Assembly (NCBI RefSeq): GCF_022568815.1
Contig: NZ_JAKZHX010000003.1
Location: 1-64,000 of the forward strand
Length of the DNA stretch: 64,000 nucleotides
Reading direction: 5' to 3'
From: Undibacterium paludis
Lineage (GTDB): Bacteria; Pseudomonadota; Gammaproteobacteria; Burkholderiales; Burkholderiaceae_D
Below, piece by piece: positions 29,508-42,373 of this stretch; position 1 is the first letter of the stretch, and every line of letters begins with the position of its first letter. The notes under the pieces are model-generated. The model saw only the letters and a list, made by a program, of their open reading frames with translations, was not told where the DNA came from and did not search any database. A program made the translations under genes and the position numbers.

Positions 29508-29534
29508 TAAAGTCTAGTTTGCCTTAGCCGATAA
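29508..29534 (+). promoter_or_regulatory. FliA (sigma-28) promoter of fliD operon
   Basis: TAAA (29508-29511), exactly 15 bp, then GCCGATAA (29527-29534), a perfect match to the sigma-28 consensus. It lies 34 bp before the fliD start and should drive fliD-fliS-fliT and perhaps the genes after them. Confidence 0.95.
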
Positions 29535-29568: not shown

Positions 29569-31581
29569 GTGGGCATACAATCAACTGGCATTGGCGCAAA
29601 TCTTAATGTCAATGACATAATCACCAAATTAATGCAGGTTGAGAGCCAGCCACTGACTACGCTGGCAAAGAAGGAAGCCAGCTTTCAGGCCAAGCTGTCT
29701 GCTTATGGCACGCTCAACAGTGCACTTAGTGTGTTCCAGTCCAATGTTACCGGCTTATCCAACCTCGGTACCTTCCAGACTTTAACAGCAACTGCTGGCG
29801 ACAGTTCTATTGCATCTGCGACAACAACCAGCGTGTCTACCCAGGGCAGCTACAATCTCAATATTACCAAGCTGGCCCAGGCACAGACCATATCGAGTGC
29901 CGGGCAAGTGAGTTCAACAGCAGCCATAGGCAGCGGCACCAGTACGACCATTACCTTTCAATTTGGCACGATTACTGGCGGCACACTGACCAACGGTACT
30001 TACACAGGTGCAAGCTTTAACCAGGACGCAACACAATCCACGGGGACTGTCACCATAGATGGCGCAAACAATTCCCTGCAAGGCATACGGGATGCCATTA
30101 ACGCCGCCAGTATCGGCGTCAATGCCACCATAGTCGGTGACGGCAGTGCAACGCCTTATCATCTGGTGTTGACTTCGACAAAGACCGGCGCTACTTCGAG
30201 CCTGAAAATCAGTGCAAGTGGTGATGCTGCAATACAGAGCCTGATAAATTACGATCCGGCTGGCACGCAAAACCTGACAGAAACAACCACCGGACAAAAT
30301 GCAGCCCTGACAATCAACGGTATTGCCGTGTCCAGTACGTCGAATGCTGTTACCGGCGCAATTCAGGGTACAACCATCAACCTGAGCAAGGTAGGCACCA
30401 CCACATTGAGTCTGACCACCAATACCAGCGGGATACAATCAGCGGTCAATGGATTCGTTAAAGGCTACAATGACCTGCAGTCAACATTGAAAACCTTGAC
30501 TGGATATGATGCGTCGACAAAAAAAGGCGGCATTTTGCTTGGTGATTCCACAGCGAGAACTGTACAAAGCCAGATCAGATCAACACTGACAGCCAGTGTC
30601 AACGGCTTGGGCGGCAACATCACCACCCTATCGAGCATAGGAATCAGTTTTCAGAAAGATGGCACACTTACTGTCGACTCGACCAAGCTGCAAAATGCGC
30701 TTACTAATAATTTCAGTGAAATCAGCGGCTTATTTGCATCAGTCGGCAAAGCAACAGACAGCCTGGTCAGCTACAGCAGTGCCACCTCTGCAACCCAGCA
30801 AGGGTCCTACGCGATTGATGTATCCACTATTGCCACACAAGGCGGTCTGACCGGCAATGTGGACCTGACCACCGGTAATACGACGATTGCGGCCAATACT
30901 GCCATCAATGTTACTCTTGATGGCGTTACTTCGTCCGTCAGTCTGGCCGCGGGCTCTTATAGCGCGTCGGCACTGGCCACGTTGATACAAAGTTCCATCA
31001 ATGGCAACTCCACCTTCAAAACGAATGGAGCCACAGTGGTTGCAAGTATCAATGGCAGTGGTTACCTGCAATTGCAATCTACTCGCTACGGCAGCGCCTC
31101 AAATGTTACCCTCGCTGACAATACCGGCACCGGCGCAGCAGCCCTGGCAGGCACTTCCCTGGCAGGTACCGCAGGGGTCGACGTCGCGGGCAAGATCAAT
31201 GGCGTGACAGCGGCTGGCACTGGTCAGTTCCTGACAGGTGCAACTGGCTCATCAACCGAAGGCCTCAAGGTCCTGATCAATGGCGGCTCAACTGGTGCAC
31301 GTGGCACATTAAATTACTCGAAGGGTTACGGCACACAACTGACCTCACTTTTGTCAGGTTTCCTGGGAAGTGCAGGAACCATTTCCAGCTCAAGCGATGG
31401 CATCAACCGCAGTATCAAGGATATTGGCAAACAGCGTGACATTCTTAATAGCAGACTATTTGACACTGAAGCGCGCTACCGCGCCCAATTTACCGCATTA
31501 GACAGCATCGTCAGCAATCTCAATAATACGAGCACCTTCCTTTCACAGCAGCTCGCAGCATTGACAGCCAGTACGAAGTAA
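29569..31581 (+). CDS. fliD: Flagellar filament cap protein
   Basis: Forms the cap (HAP2) at the filament tip and guides flagellin folding. The protein is 670 residues, longer than E. coli FliD (468), with an enlarged Ser/Thr/Gly-rich central region. N-terminal FliD_N features (GIGANLNVNDIITKLMQVE) and a C-terminal coiled region (KDIGKQRDILNSRLFDTEARYRAQF) are clear, and INGIAVSS / INGVTAAG stretches resemble flagellin-hook IN motifs. The start is GTG (29569) with AAGGGGGAG just upstream, directly downstream of a perfect FliA promoter. FliT, its chaperone, is encoded two genes on. Confidence 0.95.
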   Translation: MGIQSTGIGANLNVNDIITKLMQVESQPLTTLAKKEASFQAKLSAYGTLNSALSVFQSNVTGLSNLGTFQTLTATAGDSSIASATTTSVSTQGSYNLNITKLAQAQTISSAGQVSSTAAIGSGTSTTITFQFGTITGGTLTNGTYTGASFNQDATQSTGTVTIDGANNSLQGIRDAINAASIGVNATIVGDGSATPYHLVLTSTKTGATSSLKISASGDAAIQSLINYDPAGTQNLTETTTGQNAALTINGIAVSSTSNAVTGAIQGTTINLSKVGTTTLSLTTNTSGIQSAVNGFVKGYNDLQSTLKTLTGYDASTKKGGILLGDSTARTVQSQIRSTLTASVNGLGGNITTLSSIGISFQKDGTLTVDSTKLQNALTNNFSEISGLFASVGKATDSLVSYSSATSATQQGSYAIDVSTIATQGGLTGNVDLTTGNTTIAANTAINVTLDGVTSSVSLAAGSYSASALATLIQSSINGNSTFKTNGATVVASINGSGYLQLQSTRYGSASNVTLADNTGTGAAALAGTSLAGTAGVDVAGKINGVTAAGTGQFLTGATGSSTEGLKVLINGGSTGARGTLNYSKGYGTQLTSLLSGFLGSAGTISSSSDGINRSIKDIGKQRDILNSRLFDTEARYRAQFTALDSIVSNLNNTSTFLSQQLAALTASTK

Positions 31582-31623
31582 AACCGCAGGCAGAATAGAA
31601 AACAAAAGAGAGGATTTATTGCT

Positions 31624-32094
31624 ATGTTTGGCTCATCTCAAGCGCGCGGCGCAAATGCCTATGCCAAAGTTGGCATTGAAACTGGCGTCATTGCAGCCAG
31701 CCCCCATAAATTGATTGTCATGCTATTTGAAGGGGCTATCGTTTCCATTTCCAATGCTGTTCAGCATTTACATGGTGGCGATGTTGCAGCCAAGGGCCAA
31801 TCCACCTCCAAGGCAATTGCCATCATCGAGAATGGCCTGCGCGCCAGTCTGGATAAAAAAGCCGGCGGTGAGATCGCCCAGAGTCTGGACTCTTTATATG
31901 AATACATGACAGCACGCCTGTTACGTGCCAACCTGGAAAACAGTGAAGAGATGATGGTAGAAGTTCAGAATTTGTTGCGTGACTTGAAAACCTCATGGGA
32001 AGCTATTGCCCCCAATCAGGATACTGTCAGCGATATTCCCAAAGTCAGCGCCGATCCTTTGTCCCCTCGCCCTGCCAACTTTGTTGAGGCTTAA
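31624..32094 (+). CDS. fliS: Flagellin export chaperone FliS
   Basis: A small helical chaperone (156 residues) that binds the C-terminal end of flagellin and prevents premature polymerisation. The N-terminus has ANAYAKVGIETGVIAASPHKLIVMLFEGA, typical of FliS (Y near 12, LI.MLF.GA motif). The C-terminal 20 residues are Pro/Ser-rich. Follows fliD by 42 bp with an AGAGAGGA ribosome site, and precedes fliT by 6 bp. Confidence 0.95.
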   Translation: MFGSSQARGANAYAKVGIETGVIAASPHKLIVMLFEGAIVSISNAVQHLHGGDVAAKGQSTSKAIAIIENGLRASLDKKAGGEIAQSLDSLYEYMTARLLRANLENSEEMMVEVQNLLRDLKTSWEAIAPNQDTVSDIPKVSADPLSPRPANFVEA

Positions 32095-32100
32095 AATAAG

Positions 32101-32436
32101 ATGAATAGTCTGGAACTAATCTCATTGTACGAAAATGTCGCCGTCATTACGGGCAACATGCTGGAAGCTGCACGCTCAGGCGATTGGGAACTGCTGGAAC
32201 AGCTTGAAAATGATTGTTCAAGCCGCGTCCAGACGATACGCGAAAGCGAGATACCCTTTGATTTACCGTCAGAGATGCGCGACAAAAAAATACGCATCAT
32301 CAAGAAAATTCTCGCTGATGATAAGGAAATTCGCGACATTACTGAGCCCTGGATGGAACGTCTGGCCAGTTTGATGAAAGATTCCAGCACCAACAGGAAG
32401 CTGAACAAAACTTACGGGACAGGTAGTACAGCCTGA
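32101..32436 (+). CDS. fliT: FliT-like flagellar chaperone
   Basis: A 111-residue all-helical protein after fliS. Sequence identity in FliT is low across species; size, charge pattern and position support the call. FliT binds the cap protein FliD and in enteric bacteria also inhibits FlhDC. The motif WELLEQLENDC followed by RDKKIRIIKKILADDKEIRD resembles the FliT core. Starts 6 bp after fliS and ends 5 bp before the FliK-like gene, so it is in the same transcript. Confidence 0.82.
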   Translation: MNSLELISLYENVAVITGNMLEAARSGDWELLEQLENDCSSRVQTIRESEIPFDLPSEMRDKKIRIIKKILADDKEIRDITEPWMERLASLMKDSSTNRKLNKTYGTGSTA

Positions 32437-32441
32437 CTTTT

Positions 32442-33791
32442 ATGGCTACTCAACTCGATAGTATCAACAGGCCGGTTGCCAATATCGAGGCGCCAAGTGC
32501 TGCAATTGCAATTGGCGAGACCAAGCAGGACATCACCCCAAAACTGGCGCAGCTAGTCACAGGCCAACTACTCAAAGGCGAGATACTGTCCAAACTGATG
32601 GATGGCAGTTACACGGTCAGGGTAGCAGGCATTACGGCCAAAATGATGCTTCCAGAGGGCACCAAGGCCGGCGATCAGGTGCCTTTGCGCCTGATTGCTA
32701 CTGAGCCAAGGCCGACATTTTTGCTGGAACATGATGGTGATACGCACTTCCCTACCCCGTTACCGCAAAAATACTCACCCGGCCCCGATATACGCGCAAG
32801 CAATTCAGGCGTTTTAGGCACCTATGCAGACCAGATCGCAGAAGAAGCAGGTCCAGTACAGGCAAGACCCTCGCCTGCGGGTAAATCTGGGGATAACTTC
32901 ACCGCTGACGCGGGACACACACAAAAAGCAGACACCTCTACCATCGTCAGCCTGTCTGTGAGTACTGAAGGTAAAAAAACTGATGTAATTACCGGACAGA
33001 ATTCACCAACACAAGAAATTGCCAGCAGCAAAACCGCAGAAATCGCACCCAGATTACCCCTGACGAACACGAAAGCCGCAGACAGCACACCAGATCACCT
33101 GAGCAGCGCACCAACATCCTTAAGCAATACTGCCAAATTCATCAGTCAGATATTACAAGCGGCACCCAATACCGGCAACAAGGTGAATATCGCCAGCGAG
33201 ACCCCTGTCGTTGCTGCTCCGGCAGAACTCAAGGACACTGCCGCAACGGCTTCCAAACTGCAAAACCAGATTAGCAAAAGTGGTTTATTCTACGAATCTC
33301 ATGTTGCAGAGTGGGCGCAGGGAAAACGTCCCATTTCAGAGATCAAGGGAGAGCCTCAGTCACGTGATGATGCAAGCAAAATTTCGGATATCAGGCCTGG
33401 CACAGGATTGCCCAGCGTCAGCAAGGAAATGGGACAAATAATTCACCAGCAACTCAACGTTTTAGATCAAAATATTGTACGATGGCATGGGGAGCTTTTC
33501 CCCGGACAAAAAATCGACTGGGAAATAAAAAAAGAAGCAAAGGAAACCCGGCATCTGCAAGAACCGGACGACACAAACTGGCAATCCGTGGTTCGCTTTG
33601 AGTTGCCCAATCTGGGGCCTGTCACTGCAACCATTAATCTGCAATCAAACAATCTGGGCCTGTCCCTGCGGGCTGAACAAAGCGACACAGTATCCGCCCT
33701 CAAGGATCACGCGAGTGAATTAGCCAGCGCCATGCACACGGCAGGTTCACCGCTGATGTCTTTTGTGGTGAGTAAAAATGAGCGCAGCTAA
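32442..33791 (+). CDS. FliK-like protein with C-terminal hook-length-control domain (second paralogue)
   Basis: A 449-residue protein with a low-complexity middle (about 110-310, rich in Ser, Thr, Ala, Lys) and a C-terminal Flg_hook domain (about 365-445) with VVRFELPNLGPVTATINLQSNNLGLSLRAE. This is the FliK domain that touches FlhB to switch export specificity. A second, canonical fliK lies between fliJ and fliL in this window. The stop overlaps the start of a stand-alone FlhB C-terminal-domain gene by 14 nt, so a FliK-like/FlhB-like pair is made together. It may act in hook or filament length control or be an export accessory factor; no experiment is known to me. Confidence 0.78.
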   Translation: MATQLDSINRPVANIEAPSAAIAIGETKQDITPKLAQLVTGQLLKGEILSKLMDGSYTVRVAGITAKMMLPEGTKAGDQVPLRLIATEPRPTFLLEHDGDTHFPTPLPQKYSPGPDIRASNSGVLGTYADQIAEEAGPVQARPSPAGKSGDNFTADAGHTQKADTSTIVSLSVSTEGKKTDVITGQNSPTQEIASSKTAEIAPRLPLTNTKAADSTPDHLSSAPTSLSNTAKFISQILQAAPNTGNKVNIASETPVVAAPAELKDTAATASKLQNQISKSGLFYESHVAEWAQGKRPISEIKGEPQSRDDASKISDIRPGTGLPSVSKEMGQIIHQQLNVLDQNIVRWHGELFPGQKIDWEIKKEAKETRHLQEPDDTNWQSVVRFELPNLGPVTATINLQSNNLGLSLRAEQSDTVSALKDHASELASAMHTAGSPLMSFVVSKNERS

Positions 33792-34098
33792 TTCATCTGA
33801 CAAACCCGTCACACAAAATGCGGTGGCACTTGCCTATCAGACCGGAGATTCTGCGCCCAAAGTGGTAGCCAAGGGAAAAGGACTGATCGCCGAAGAAATC
33901 ATTGCCAGGGCACGTGAACATGGCGTCCACGTACATCAGTCCAAGGAACTGGTTTCATTACTGATGAAGGTGGATCTTGATCGAGATATACCTCCAGCCC
34001 TGTATCGCGCTGTTGCAGAACTGCTCGCTTGGCTTTACCATATTGATACGGAAAAATCAGGGACGATTTCAGAGACTTCCGGGCAAGAGAGCGTTTAG
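33778..34098 (+). CDS. Stand-alone FlhB cytoplasmic-domain protein (EscU/YscU/HrcU switch family)
   Basis: A 106-residue soluble protein equal to the C-terminal cytoplasmic part of FlhB (FlhB-CC). It lacks the four membrane helices. Where FlhB has the autocleavage motif NPTH followed by YAVAL, this protein has PVTQNAVAL (10-18), so it starts near the natural cleavage site and carries no cleavage motif. The rest, APKVVAKGKGLIAEEI and DIPPALYRAVAELLAWLY, is a good match to the family. It resembles a ready-made cleaved FlhB fragment. Overlaps the FliK-like gene by 14 nt. Similar proteins exist in other bacteria; their role is not settled. Confidence 0.82.
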   Translation: MSAANSSDKPVTQNAVALAYQTGDSAPKVVAKGKGLIAEEIIARAREHGVHVHQSKELVSLLMKVDLDRDIPPALYRAVAELLAWLYHIDTEKSGTISETSGQESV

Positions 34099-34130
34099 CG
34101 CCCCCACTTTTTGAATGTGATTATAAAAAT

Positions 34131-34892
34131 ATGCCATCCTTACCTCCGAGCCTGGGTACAGAAAATCAAAGCCCGTACCAAGTTGATTCCCGACGGGAAA
34201 TCATCGGTTTGTTGCGAGGCTTGAAGGAAAGCAAGCAATTGATCAGCATGTTGATCAATAGCGGCTCGGAAGTGTTTATCACATCCATTCTTGATGTTGA
34301 TGATACCGAAAACCTCGTCATCATCGATAGTGCCCCTGGCCAACTGGCCAACCAGCGCATCGTTGAAGCAGCCAGGGTATCGTTTGAAGGCTTGCTGGAT
34401 AAAATAAGCATACAGTTTTCATCATCCAACCTGGAACGCATCACATTTGAAGATCGCCCTGCATTGCAGTTTGAGATCCCTTCAACCATGATACGTTTGC
34501 AAAGGCGCGAATATTATCGTATCAACACGCCATTGACCAACCCGATACGCGCCACCATCCCGGTCAAAGTAGATGACAGGACAGAAACGCTTAAACTGGC
34601 TCTGGTTGACATCAGTTGCGGCGGGATTGCCATTCTCGATGAAAAAAAGCTGCTTGAAAGCACGATAGGTATCATCTATGAGCACTGCAAGCTGGAATTG
34701 CCATCAATAGGCATGGTTGATGTGGTGCTGCAAGTGAGGAATTCCCAGGATTTGATCCTGCTGAATGGCAAATCAAACCGCCGCCTTGGGTGCCAGTTCA
34801 TCAATATGTCCAATAGCGTACTGGCGAGCATACAACGCTATATCATGAAGCTCGAACGTGAGCGTAATGCCAAGATTACAGGCATACGCTAA
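34131..34892 (+). CDS. ycgR: Flagellar brake protein YcgR (PilZ domain)
   Basis: c-di-GMP receptor that slows the flagellar motor. The N-terminal YcgR domain (about 15-115) is followed by a PilZ domain with both ligand motifs: R126-x3-R130 in RREYYR and D160-x-S162-x2-G165. At 253 residues it is the usual length. Its place in the fli region, 32 bp after the FlhB-like gene, supports a motor role. It is the likely receptor for c-di-GMP set by the EAL and GGDEF enzymes elsewhere in the window. Confidence 0.92.
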   Translation: MPSLPPSLGTENQSPYQVDSRREIIGLLRGLKESKQLISMLINSGSEVFITSILDVDDTENLVIIDSAPGQLANQRIVEAARVSFEGLLDKISIQFSSSNLERITFEDRPALQFEIPSTMIRLQRREYYRINTPLTNPIRATIPVKVDDRTETLKLALVDISCGGIAILDEKKLLESTIGIIYEHCKLELPSIGMVDVVLQVRNSQDLILLNGKSNRRLGCQFINMSNSVLASIQRYIMKLERERNAKITGIR

Positions 34893-34957
34893 CGACATCC
34901 TTTATACAGACATCGGACTACCAAGAGAATAACCGCCTGATCTGACCAACCTATGAC

Positions 34958-35311
34958 TTATATCTGCATGTTCATGATGTCGTGATACGCAGACACCAGC
35001 CGGTTTCTCACCTGTACTGTCGTTTGAAATGAAATGTTGGCCTTTTGCATGGAGATCATGACATCAGACAAGCTGACCTTGTCATCACCCATGGCAAACT
35101 TCTGTCCTAACTGCTCAGAACTCACCTGCGCCTTGTTTACCGTATCCAGCGAGGCCTTAAGGGCCTCGGCAAAATCAAGTCGGCCAGGAGAGGCCGTGTT
35201 GTCTGTACGATTGGCGGCAATGCCGGCACTCGCCTCCATCTTGGCAGCGGTCGCCTTCAACTGGGCAATCATCGCCTCTATCTGGCCCGCGCCTATCCCC
35301 TCCATTTTCAT
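34958..35311 (-). CDS. fliE: Flagellar hook-basal body protein FliE
   Basis: Adapter joining the MS ring to the proximal rod. 117 residues; the C-terminal half has the FliE pattern: FAEALKASLDTVNKAQ, KVSLSDVMISMQKANISFQTTVQVRNRLVSAYHDIMNMQI-like sequence ending in the conserved YxxIMNMxI. It is encoded alone on the minus strand, divergent from fliF with a 200-bp shared control region; divergent fliE/fliF is frequent in betaproteobacteria. Confidence 0.95.
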   Translation of the reverse strand: MKMEGIGAGQIEAMIAQLKATAAKMEASAGIAANRTDNTASPGRLDFAEALKASLDTVNKAQVSSEQLGQKFAMGDDKVSLSDVMISMQKANISFQTTVQVRNRLVSAYHDIMNMQI

Positions 35312-40747: not shown

Positions 40748-40765
40748 TCTTTAACAGGTATTCAA

Positions 40766-42373
40766 ATGCAAGCCAACGCCATAGTGACCGCTACGGATAG
40801 CCCAACTGGGACCGTCAAGACTGGAAAAAACAGTTCGTCTGCAAATCTCGACATCAGCTTCAACCAGATGCTGGACAAAGAGATATACAACAGCAAAAAG
40901 CCAGACCTGGATATGGCGCGCCCTGCCAGCAGGCCCGTGCCACCCGCAAAGTCCAATAACACCAGTAATAATGTCAACGCCACCAATATCAAGACAGCTG
41001 GCAATAACGGCAATGGTAACAACCTCGACACCAAGGAAAACACGACAACTCCGGTGTCATCTCAAACGGTGAGCAAATCGGACAAGCCTGAATCGGATAG
41101 CAGAAAGTTAGAACAAGATGACGGTACGACCGAAAAAGACGATGATATCGGCACACAGATTCTTGCCTTGGTCGGCAATCTGGCCGCTCCGCCAGTAACG
41201 ACAGATGTCAAGGCCGCCGCCGCCCCCGCCCCGGTTGATACTGGCAAAACTGACAGCCTCCCAGCCATAGGCGTCAATACGGCCGCAAGCCTGACTGATC
41301 CGGCAGATGCAACCCTTGCCAGCTTGAATAAATCTGGCGCAGATACACTCGACAAGACTGACCTGCAGTCGGGCAATCAGCTCAAGGTAATCTCCGGGCA
41401 AGACCAGGCAACCAATGAAACCGATGTCTCACGCATAGCAGCACAAATCATGGCAAGCCAGTCGGCAGGAAAGACTTCAGAAAAAGTCGTGACAAGCAAT
41501 GCCAGCCCGACTGACGCAGTAATTCTCGCAGGCAAGACCAGGTCGACCGAGGCAAATGGCGACATCTCCCTGGCTCCGGCTATTGCAGATAGCGAGGCAT
41601 TGGCAACAACATCCGCCGTTCGCAAAACCACCAGCACCGCAGACAAGAGCACTGCAACAAATGCCAGTGAAGCAAAGACCAGCGACATCGACCTCGGCAA
41701 TAAACTTGCTGACAAAACTGTTGACAGTCACGCCACTGCAACCAATATTGATACAGCAAAATCTTTTTCCAGGGATATAGCCCAGGCCAAAGATGTCTTG
41801 TCCGAGCATGCAGTTGAAGTCAAAGTGAATCCAGCAAACAAGGACATGCCACAAGTCGTGGCCGCCCCGCCAACCGTCCAGGTAGTGAATGCCAGTCAGT
41901 TTAATGCAGCAAACGCCCTGGCCGCAGAGCAGATTTCCGCACGAGTAGGCAGTGCCGGCTGGGACAAGGCAGTCGGCCAAAAAGTGGTGTGGATGGTCGG
42001 CGAAGGCTTGCAATCCGCAGAGCTGACACTGAATCCTCCCGATCTTGGCCCCTTGCAAGTAGTGTTAAAAGTTAGTAATGATCAGGCCAGCGCCAATTTC
42101 AGCTCTGCCCAACCTGAAGTAAGAGAAGCATTGGAAGCTGCCCTGCCGCGCCTTAAGCAGATGCTTAGTGATGCCGGCGTACAGCTGTCGGGCTTTTCCG
42201 TTAACTCCCAGTCTGCTGGTCAGGGTCAGAGTTTCGCGGATCAGCAAGCAAGGTCAACTTCTGGCAGCAATACAAGAATCAGCAACGAGACCGTCGACAG
42301 CCCGGTCAATACTGCAAGTACAACTACCGCCAAAGTAATAAGCAATAACGGTCTGGTCGACACCTTCGTCTGA
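40766..42373 (+). CDS. fliK: Flagellar hook-length control protein FliK
   Basis: Secreted molecular ruler that measures the hook and triggers the FlhB specificity switch. 535 residues. The N-terminal about 380 are low-complexity (Ser, Thr, Ala, Asp, Lys), as expected of the ruler part; the Flg_hook domain (about 395-475) has SAELTLNPPDLGPLQVVLKV followed by PEVREALEAALPRLKQML. It closes the fliF-K run, with an unrelated-looking 346-bp gap before fliL. It is the canonical copy; a second FliK-domain protein is encoded after fliT. Confidence 0.93.
   Translation: MQANAIVTATDSPTGTVKTGKNSSSANLDISFNQMLDKEIYNSKKPDLDMARPASRPVPPAKSNNTSNNVNATNIKTAGNNGNGNNLDTKENTTTPVSSQTVSKSDKPESDSRKLEQDDGTTEKDDDIGTQILALVGNLAAPPVTTDVKAAAAPAPVDTGKTDSLPAIGVNTAASLTDPADATLASLNKSGADTLDKTDLQSGNQLKVISGQDQATNETDVSRIAAQIMASQSAGKTSEKVVTSNASPTDAVILAGKTRSTEANGDISLAPAIADSEALATTSAVRKTTSTADKSTATNASEAKTSDIDLGNKLADKTVDSHATATNIDTAKSFSRDIAQAKDVLSEHAVEVKVNPANKDMPQVVAAPPTVQVVNASQFNAANALAAEQISARVGSAGWDKAVGQKVVWMVGEGLQSAELTLNPPDLGPLQVVLKVSNDQASANFSSAQPEVREALEAALPRLKQMLSDAGVQLSGFSVNSQSAGQGQSFADQQARSTSGSNTRISNETVDSPVNTASTTTAKVISNNGLVDTFV

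Follow-up and report, generated by a model that had tools for sequence, protein, structure and literature searches.

Stand-alone FlhB-CC domains are already known from Campylobacterota, with HP1575 of Helicobacter pylori and Cj0848c of Campylobacter jejuni as examples, and YlqH of Bacillus subtilis is a further member of the same FlhX family. These proteins (i.e., FlhX, HP1575, Cj0848c, and YlqH) generally coexist with a full FlhB. By the title of Wand et al. (2006), HP1575 can reportedly stand in as a spare part for the CC domain of Helicobacter FlhB (HP0770). In the open-licence papers found, FlhX appears as a listed component only. The flhX and fliK genes of Nitratiruptor, which lie outside the main cluster, are named together in PMC9321776; in the accessible part of that paper, this is one phrase on one genus, with no second-FliK clade and no pairing described. 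Beyond this phrase, we found no description in print of a pair formed by FlhX and a second FliK (FliK2) in the open-licence part of PubMed Central.

We analyzed a 64,000-nucleotide stretch of the Undibacterium paludis genome (contig NZ_JAKZHX010000003.1, positions 1 to 64,000; referred to here as the window). Its flhX differs in context from the genes for HP1575, Cj0848c, and YlqH, in that it lies inside a fliD-fliS-fliT run with a recognizable FliK domain encoded upstream (Table 1).

Table 1. Features of the window around flhX and the two fliK genes
Feature	Position	Strand	Details or basis
Sigma-28 (FliA) promoter consensus TAAA-N15-GCCGATAA, no mismatch	29508..29534	+	34 nt upstream of the fliD start codon (GTG)
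fliD, first gene of the probable operon	29569..31581	+	
fliS	31624..32094	+	
fliT	32101..32436	+	Domain match
fliK2, 449 aa	32442..33791	+	Flg_hook match, predicted model, motif alignment
Overlap of fliK2 end and flhX start, 14 nt	33778..33791	+	ORF coordinates
flhX, stand-alone FlhB-CC domain, no NPTH	33778..34098	+	106-aa ORF, profile and structure matches
ycgR-like PilZN-PilZ gene, downstream of flhX	34131..34892	+	Domain matches
fliK1, ordinary FliK, stop-to-stop open frame	40748..42373	+	Flg_hook match

The flhX product is homologous to FlhB-CC and lacks the membrane part of FlhB. It matched Pfam Bac_export_2 in its C-terminal part only (profile positions 259 to 335 of 335, 70 bits) and the NCBIfam model TIGR00789 (flhB_rel) at 96.4 bits, and these two scores place the identity of the domain far above chance. 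The latter score is under the curated cutoff of 117.35 bits, and the protein is not filed under that model. Residues 10 to 14 (PVTQN) aligned to NPTHF in the flagellar FlhB of this genome, and ten residues precede the FlhB cleavage point in the alignment. The initial annotation had read this frame as a stand-alone FlhB-CC mimic that starts almost exactly at the cleavage point and has PVTQN in place of the NPTH-Y segment; the profile matches and the alignment bear this out, although "mimic" is too weak a word for an old, separate family (see below). With neither a membrane domain nor an NPTH autocleavage site, the product is not FlhB proper; the absence of NPTH, alongside a complete, NPTH-bearing FlhB in the same genome, agrees with FlhX, as does the grouping with other stand-alone domains (see below). 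The protein itself is not new: it is a soluble FlhB-CC domain of the known FlhX family.

The best PDB sequence matches were the FlhB cytoplasmic domains 3b1s and 3b0z, which also ranked first in a Foldseek search with the predicted FlhX model (pLDDT 69, middling confidence; E values of 1.5e-5 to 1.9e-4 and 38 to 43% identity). FlhX and these FlhB-CC structures have the same fold and mostly the same substrate pocket. The closest named relative, from Undibacterium umbellatum (L066), was 89% identical, and the dN/dS ratio between the two genes (0.027/1.10 over 75 codons) indicates strong purifying selection; within the same set, one comparison (L101) was discarded as misaligned, and four others gave a saturated dS (-1).

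The 6.5-Mb source genome (G000) encodes three full FlhB/SctU proteins and one stand-alone FlhX domain. The FlhB encoded on the window's contig keeps NPTH and scored 398 bits against the flagellar FlhB cutoff of 349. The further two proteins are encoded on contigs C12 (L002) and C7 (L003); one scores as SctU (374 bits over 358), and the other, with 323 and 319 bits, is under both the FlhB and the SctU cutoffs. Two FliK-type domains were detected in this genome, both inside the window (33552-33785 and 41978-42226). The initial annotation mentioned "both FliK proteins"; the role of the second FliK as the genetic partner of flhX was not stated there.

To place FlhX relative to FlhB, we compared all 75 short TIGR00789 places from two genome samples (41 and 34) with 54 FlhB-CC domains (one from each of 52 FlhB-bearing genomes of the phylum sample and two from relatives). 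FastTree put 74 FlhX and the 54 FlhB-CC on two sides (support, 0.88), with a single place, in G073, off its label; its position in the tree and all of its sequence marks identify this place as an FlhB fragment, and the other 74 are FlhX. A smaller tree of the 59 best-scoring FlhX and 40 FlhB gave the same split (support, 0.90). The tree rests on approximately 75 columns, with untrustworthy branching inside FlhX, and it left out the literature members HP1575 and Cj0848c. The G073 genome belongs to the same genus as the source genome and has, at this locus (L264; G073:C1:296618-297844), the FlhB-CC fragment only, with no FlhX and a single FliK-type domain.

The two sides of the tree also differ in their sequence marks. 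NPTH was absent from all 74 FlhX and present in 48 of 54 FlhB, the remaining six having NPTR or NPTQ. A one-residue deletion at FlhB position 321 is common to 74/74 FlhX. Arg302 was found in 0/74 FlhX versus 52/54 FlhB, Arg320 in 4/74 versus 54/54, and Ala319 and Arg320 together in 0/74 versus 53/54; Glu342, in turn, was found in 73/74 FlhX versus 24/54 FlhB. Compared with FlhB-CC, FlhX thus has no membrane part and no NPTH, is one residue shorter at 321, and has lost Arg302 and, mostly, Arg320. The substrate pocket residues named in the accessible text of PMC13344023 (A286, P287, A341, and L344; docking at this pocket is also described in the accessible text of PMC8983047) are kept in 64, 73, 74, and 69 of the 74 FlhX, respectively, with all four together in 59; L344 itself occurs in just 40 of the 54 FlhB. 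Many FlhX lack one residue in the loop at 281-285 (alignment gap at position 281 in 39 of the 75 rows). As judged from the tree and these marks, FlhX is an old paralogue of FlhB-CC and a separate family. An origin by recent decay from the FlhB of this genome was rejected: the domain is 49% identical to that protein (52% to the best-matching FlhB) against 83 to 97% to the eleven closest other FlhX, and the families are separate in the tree. We found no paper on FlhB R320 in open-licence PubMed Central.

The FlhB proteins with NPTR or NPTQ are those of L153, L158, L167, L169, L164, and L188 (G040, G048, G017, G025, G018, and G088), and all six genomes also carry FlhX. The TIGR00789 cutoff (117 bits) was reached in none of the 60 genomes of the phylum sample, and FlhX of proteobacteria may therefore go by other names.

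The protein encoded upstream of flhX matched Pfam Flg_hook at 49 bits against a cutoff of 29.8 and is therefore a FliK-domain protein. It comprises an N-terminal OB/S1-like domain (model residues about 25 to 99), an SGLFYESH motif at residues 280 to 287, and a C-terminal switch domain (residues 372 to 447) followed by 2 residues. In FliK1, by comparison, the switch domain (residues 411 to 493 of 541) is followed by 48 residues. A tree of the 59 flhX-adjacent domains (26 and 33 from the two samples) and all 58 other Flg_hook places of the phylum sample separated adjacent from other domains (support, 0.90) with four exceptions, namely the second, nonadjacent FliKs of G034, G041, G045, and G057. 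These four were relabeled FliK2 after the tree, and the resulting division into 54 FliK1 and 63 FliK2 is thus partly after the fact; under the first labels, 4 of 117 domains were misplaced. The proline of the PxxLG motif was present in 53/54 FliK1 (the other has a gap) and in 0/63 FliK2. The FliK2 frames stop 53 to 82 residues after LG, whereas 0/54 FliK1 frames stop within the 80 to 92 residues fetched. The motif SGxFYExH was invariant in 31 aligned betaproteobacterial FliK2; it also occurs at 70 of 80 named loci.

In the predicted FliK2 model, the N-terminal barrel resembled S1/OB domains (best Z, 7.7) and the C-terminal part resembled the PscP switch domain (PDB 5cuk; Z, 6.3; rmsd, 3.3; 79 residues), both Z scores lying in a range where chance matches are possible, and a Foldseek search with the model returned no match at an E value of 0.001 or better. 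The C terminus matches both Flg_hook and the PscP SS domain. FliK2 neither groups with ordinary FliK nor has the PxxLG proline, and it differs further in its shorter end and in the N-terminal OB/S1-like domain of modest Z. On the tree and motif evidence, FliK2 is a paralogue of ordinary FliK that forms its own clade.

The phylum sample comprised 60 genomes, the source genome included: 38 with FlhX (41 places), 14 with full FlhB only, and 8 without a match. At 26 of the 41 FlhX places, a Flg_hook domain in the same orientation lay no more than 600 nt upstream (one of them, in G021, under the Pfam cutoff). No FliK domain was detected adjoining the other 15, which counts against the gate reading favored below. 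At least two FliK-type domains were found in 30/38 FlhX genomes and in 0/14 genomes with FlhB and no FlhX (Fisher test, 1.8e-7, a value that overstates independence because the genomes are related and kinship was ignored); each of the 14 had exactly one Flg_hook domain. The single FliK-type domain of the other 8 FlhX genomes again counts against that reading. Counting the four relabeled domains, the genomes with FliK2 are precisely the 30 with FlhX and at least two FliK-type domains. Among 40 relatives, 33 have FlhX, and all 33 places adjoin a Flg_hook match (that of G099 under the Pfam cutoff); the remaining seven relatives lack FlhX and have at most one Flg_hook domain above the cutoff. The ORFs upstream of FlhX in G009 and G044 and of the second FlhX copies in G021, G029, and G040 look FliK-like by eye (E values of 0.03 to 1.9) and were not counted, nor was the upstream ORF of G036 (E value, 0.05). 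G021, G029, and G040 have two FlhX copies each, one adjoining a detectable FliK2 and the other not.

We also inspected 80 named loci, which are the best matches to the window's own FlhX and are biased toward betaproteobacteria. FliK2 was detected upstream of FlhX in 73 of these by profile and anywhere in the surrounding stretch in 76 by tblastn. Three of the seven profile misses (L090, L108, and L133) were wrong-frame picks at loci where the FliK2 motif is present; the other four (L121, L128, L131, and L141) were Accumulibacter loci without the motif. In related loci, flhX frequently begins before its upstream neighbor has ended, and the 14-nt overlap of the window is the commonest arrangement (25 of 80, taking as the start the ATG nearest the upstream stop), which likely reflects translational coupling. 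No fused FliK2-FlhX protein was seen among 59 loci; long open frames at G094, G035, and G084 run from stop to stop, with a start codon at the end of fliK2, and are not fusions. The second FliK is, by its occurrence and gene position, the genetic partner of the FlhX gene, and this co-inherited protein is of greater interest than FlhX and has been described less.

In the window, fliD, fliS, fliT, fliK2, flhX, and the ycgR-like gene form a closely spaced run on one strand. Sigma-28 drives late flagellar genes. The window contains seven sigma-28 matches with at most 2 mismatches (4.0 expected by chance), and only the one ahead of fliD is perfect, which suggests that the fliK2-flhX pair is probably made late; we infer that sigma-28 would drive the run from fliD to flhX. 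Of 20 relatives (18 of the same genus), 11 have a match with 0 to 2 mismatches located 35 to 38 nt upstream of the inferred start of fliD; a best match of this quality within 300 nt arose in 22 of 1,000 shuffles. The other 9 relatives have no site at that place, which counts against late timing. Scans of positions 31500 to 35000 for terminators and sigma-70 promoters returned fewer sites than did shuffled sequences.

Two records from outside the betaproteobacteria place the pair elsewhere, which also counts against the late-timing reading. On a plasmid of Pseudomonas aeruginosa, the pair adjoins ccmA, with a 4-nt overlap and no ycgR; its FliK matched Flg_hook at 67 bits and the FliK2 profile with an E value of 2.7e-7, and it was left out of the FliK tree. 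The FlhX copy in this record is annotated as "EscU/YscU/HrcU family type III secretion system export apparatus switch protein." In Bacillus velezensis, an FlhX-like gene beside rnhB has a 4-nt overlap with an upstream gene, whose product (annotated as "glycosyl transferase") had no Pfam FliK match and gave a weak profile match (E value, 0.017; probability, 2.7%).

We tentatively favor, at somewhat less than even confidence, a reading in which FliK2 and FlhX constitute a duplicated FliK/FlhB-CC switch contact that acts at the gate after FliK ejects FlhB-CC. This reading builds on features documented at the sequence level, namely the identity of FlhX, its separateness from FlhB, its pairing and gene overlap with FliK2, purifying selection, and a late-type promoter sequence. 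According to the accessible text of a 2026 study in Salmonella, the flagellar switch is accompanied by a loss of FlhB-CC that depends on FliK; that study also models a contact between FliK-C and FlhB-CC and proposes that the terminal residues of FliK destabilize FlhB-CC (PMC13344023). FlhX would be made together with FliK2, which may bind it through the interface used by FliK-C and FlhB-CC. FliK2 lacks, or has in shortened form, the tail with which FliK is proposed to destabilize FlhB-CC, so the FliK2-FlhX complex would be stable and not ejecting. When the hook is complete and FliK1 has ejected FlhB-CC, the place left empty on the remainder of FlhB might be taken by FlhX, either by itself or bound to FliK2. 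The pocket of the seated FlhX would be a docking site for export signals, and FlhX would thereby trim the substrates accepted by the late gate.

The "spare part" title for HP1575 fits such seat-taking, which is also made plausible by the FliK-dependent loss of FlhB-CC in the accessible text of PMC13344023 and by the earlier end of FliK2. The Ala319-Arg320 pair and the NPT strand are both lost from FlhX, which speaks against seat-taking because they may be relevant to how the domain sits on FlhB. The shortened 281-285 loop of many FlhX also speaks against it: a five-residue deletion of this loop abolishes export in Salmonella, according to the accessible text of PMC3640470.

Several other roles would account for parts of these data. 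FlhX might act as a free decoy (an anti-FliK), with or without FliK2, that binds the cytosolic switch domains of FliK1 and delays or limits the switch. The retained FlhB-CC fold, in a model of middling confidence, and the partner-type pairing of FlhX with a FliK would suit this role, but the late-type promoter sequence would put FlhX after the first switch and the retention of a dedicated second FliK would be left unexplained, and we regard a decoy as rather unlikely. A plain spare part, with FlhX filling gates that have lost or lack FlhB-CC and regulating nothing while FliK2 is kept for a separate reason, agrees with the title of Wand et al. on Helicobacter, with the mostly retained substrate pocket, and with the full-length FlhB-type frame found in 38/38 FlhX genomes of the sample. 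Co-occurrence with FliK2 and the frequent overlap suggest instead a joint function, which makes a mere filler quite unlikely. The initial annotation's proposal that FlhX could "replace or compete" with the cleaved fragment finds partial support, with the same title as an earlier instance in Helicobacter; the function it gave to FlhX, which may extend to adjusting substrate switching, is plausible and not new.

A role away from the gate, in which FliK2 and FlhX would be, for example with the YcgR-like neighbor, a c-di-GMP-linked regulator of motility, draws on the YcgR relative beside the pair in 57 of 62 betaproteobacterial loci with full flanks. Against it, the pair adjoins ccmA without ycgR in P. 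aeruginosa, and rnhB is the neighbor of the B. velezensis FlhX-like gene and its overlapping upstream gene; such a role seems very improbable.

If FliK2 and FlhX do act together at the gate, many flagellated bacteria would have a complete second FliK/FlhB-CC contact, detached from the gate and encoded by a coupled gene pair, and in betaproteobacteria this contact would be made after the first switch and would reoccupy or rearm the gate, so that the switch would not be one-way; we consider this wider generalization doubtful. Given the FliK-dependent loss of FlhB-CC in the accessible text of PMC13344023, a free copy of FlhB-CC with a FliK-type partner is a natural test case for whether the flagellar switch can be refilled, blocked, or reversed, and the pairing of FliK2 with FlhX provides a concrete two-gene system for knockouts.
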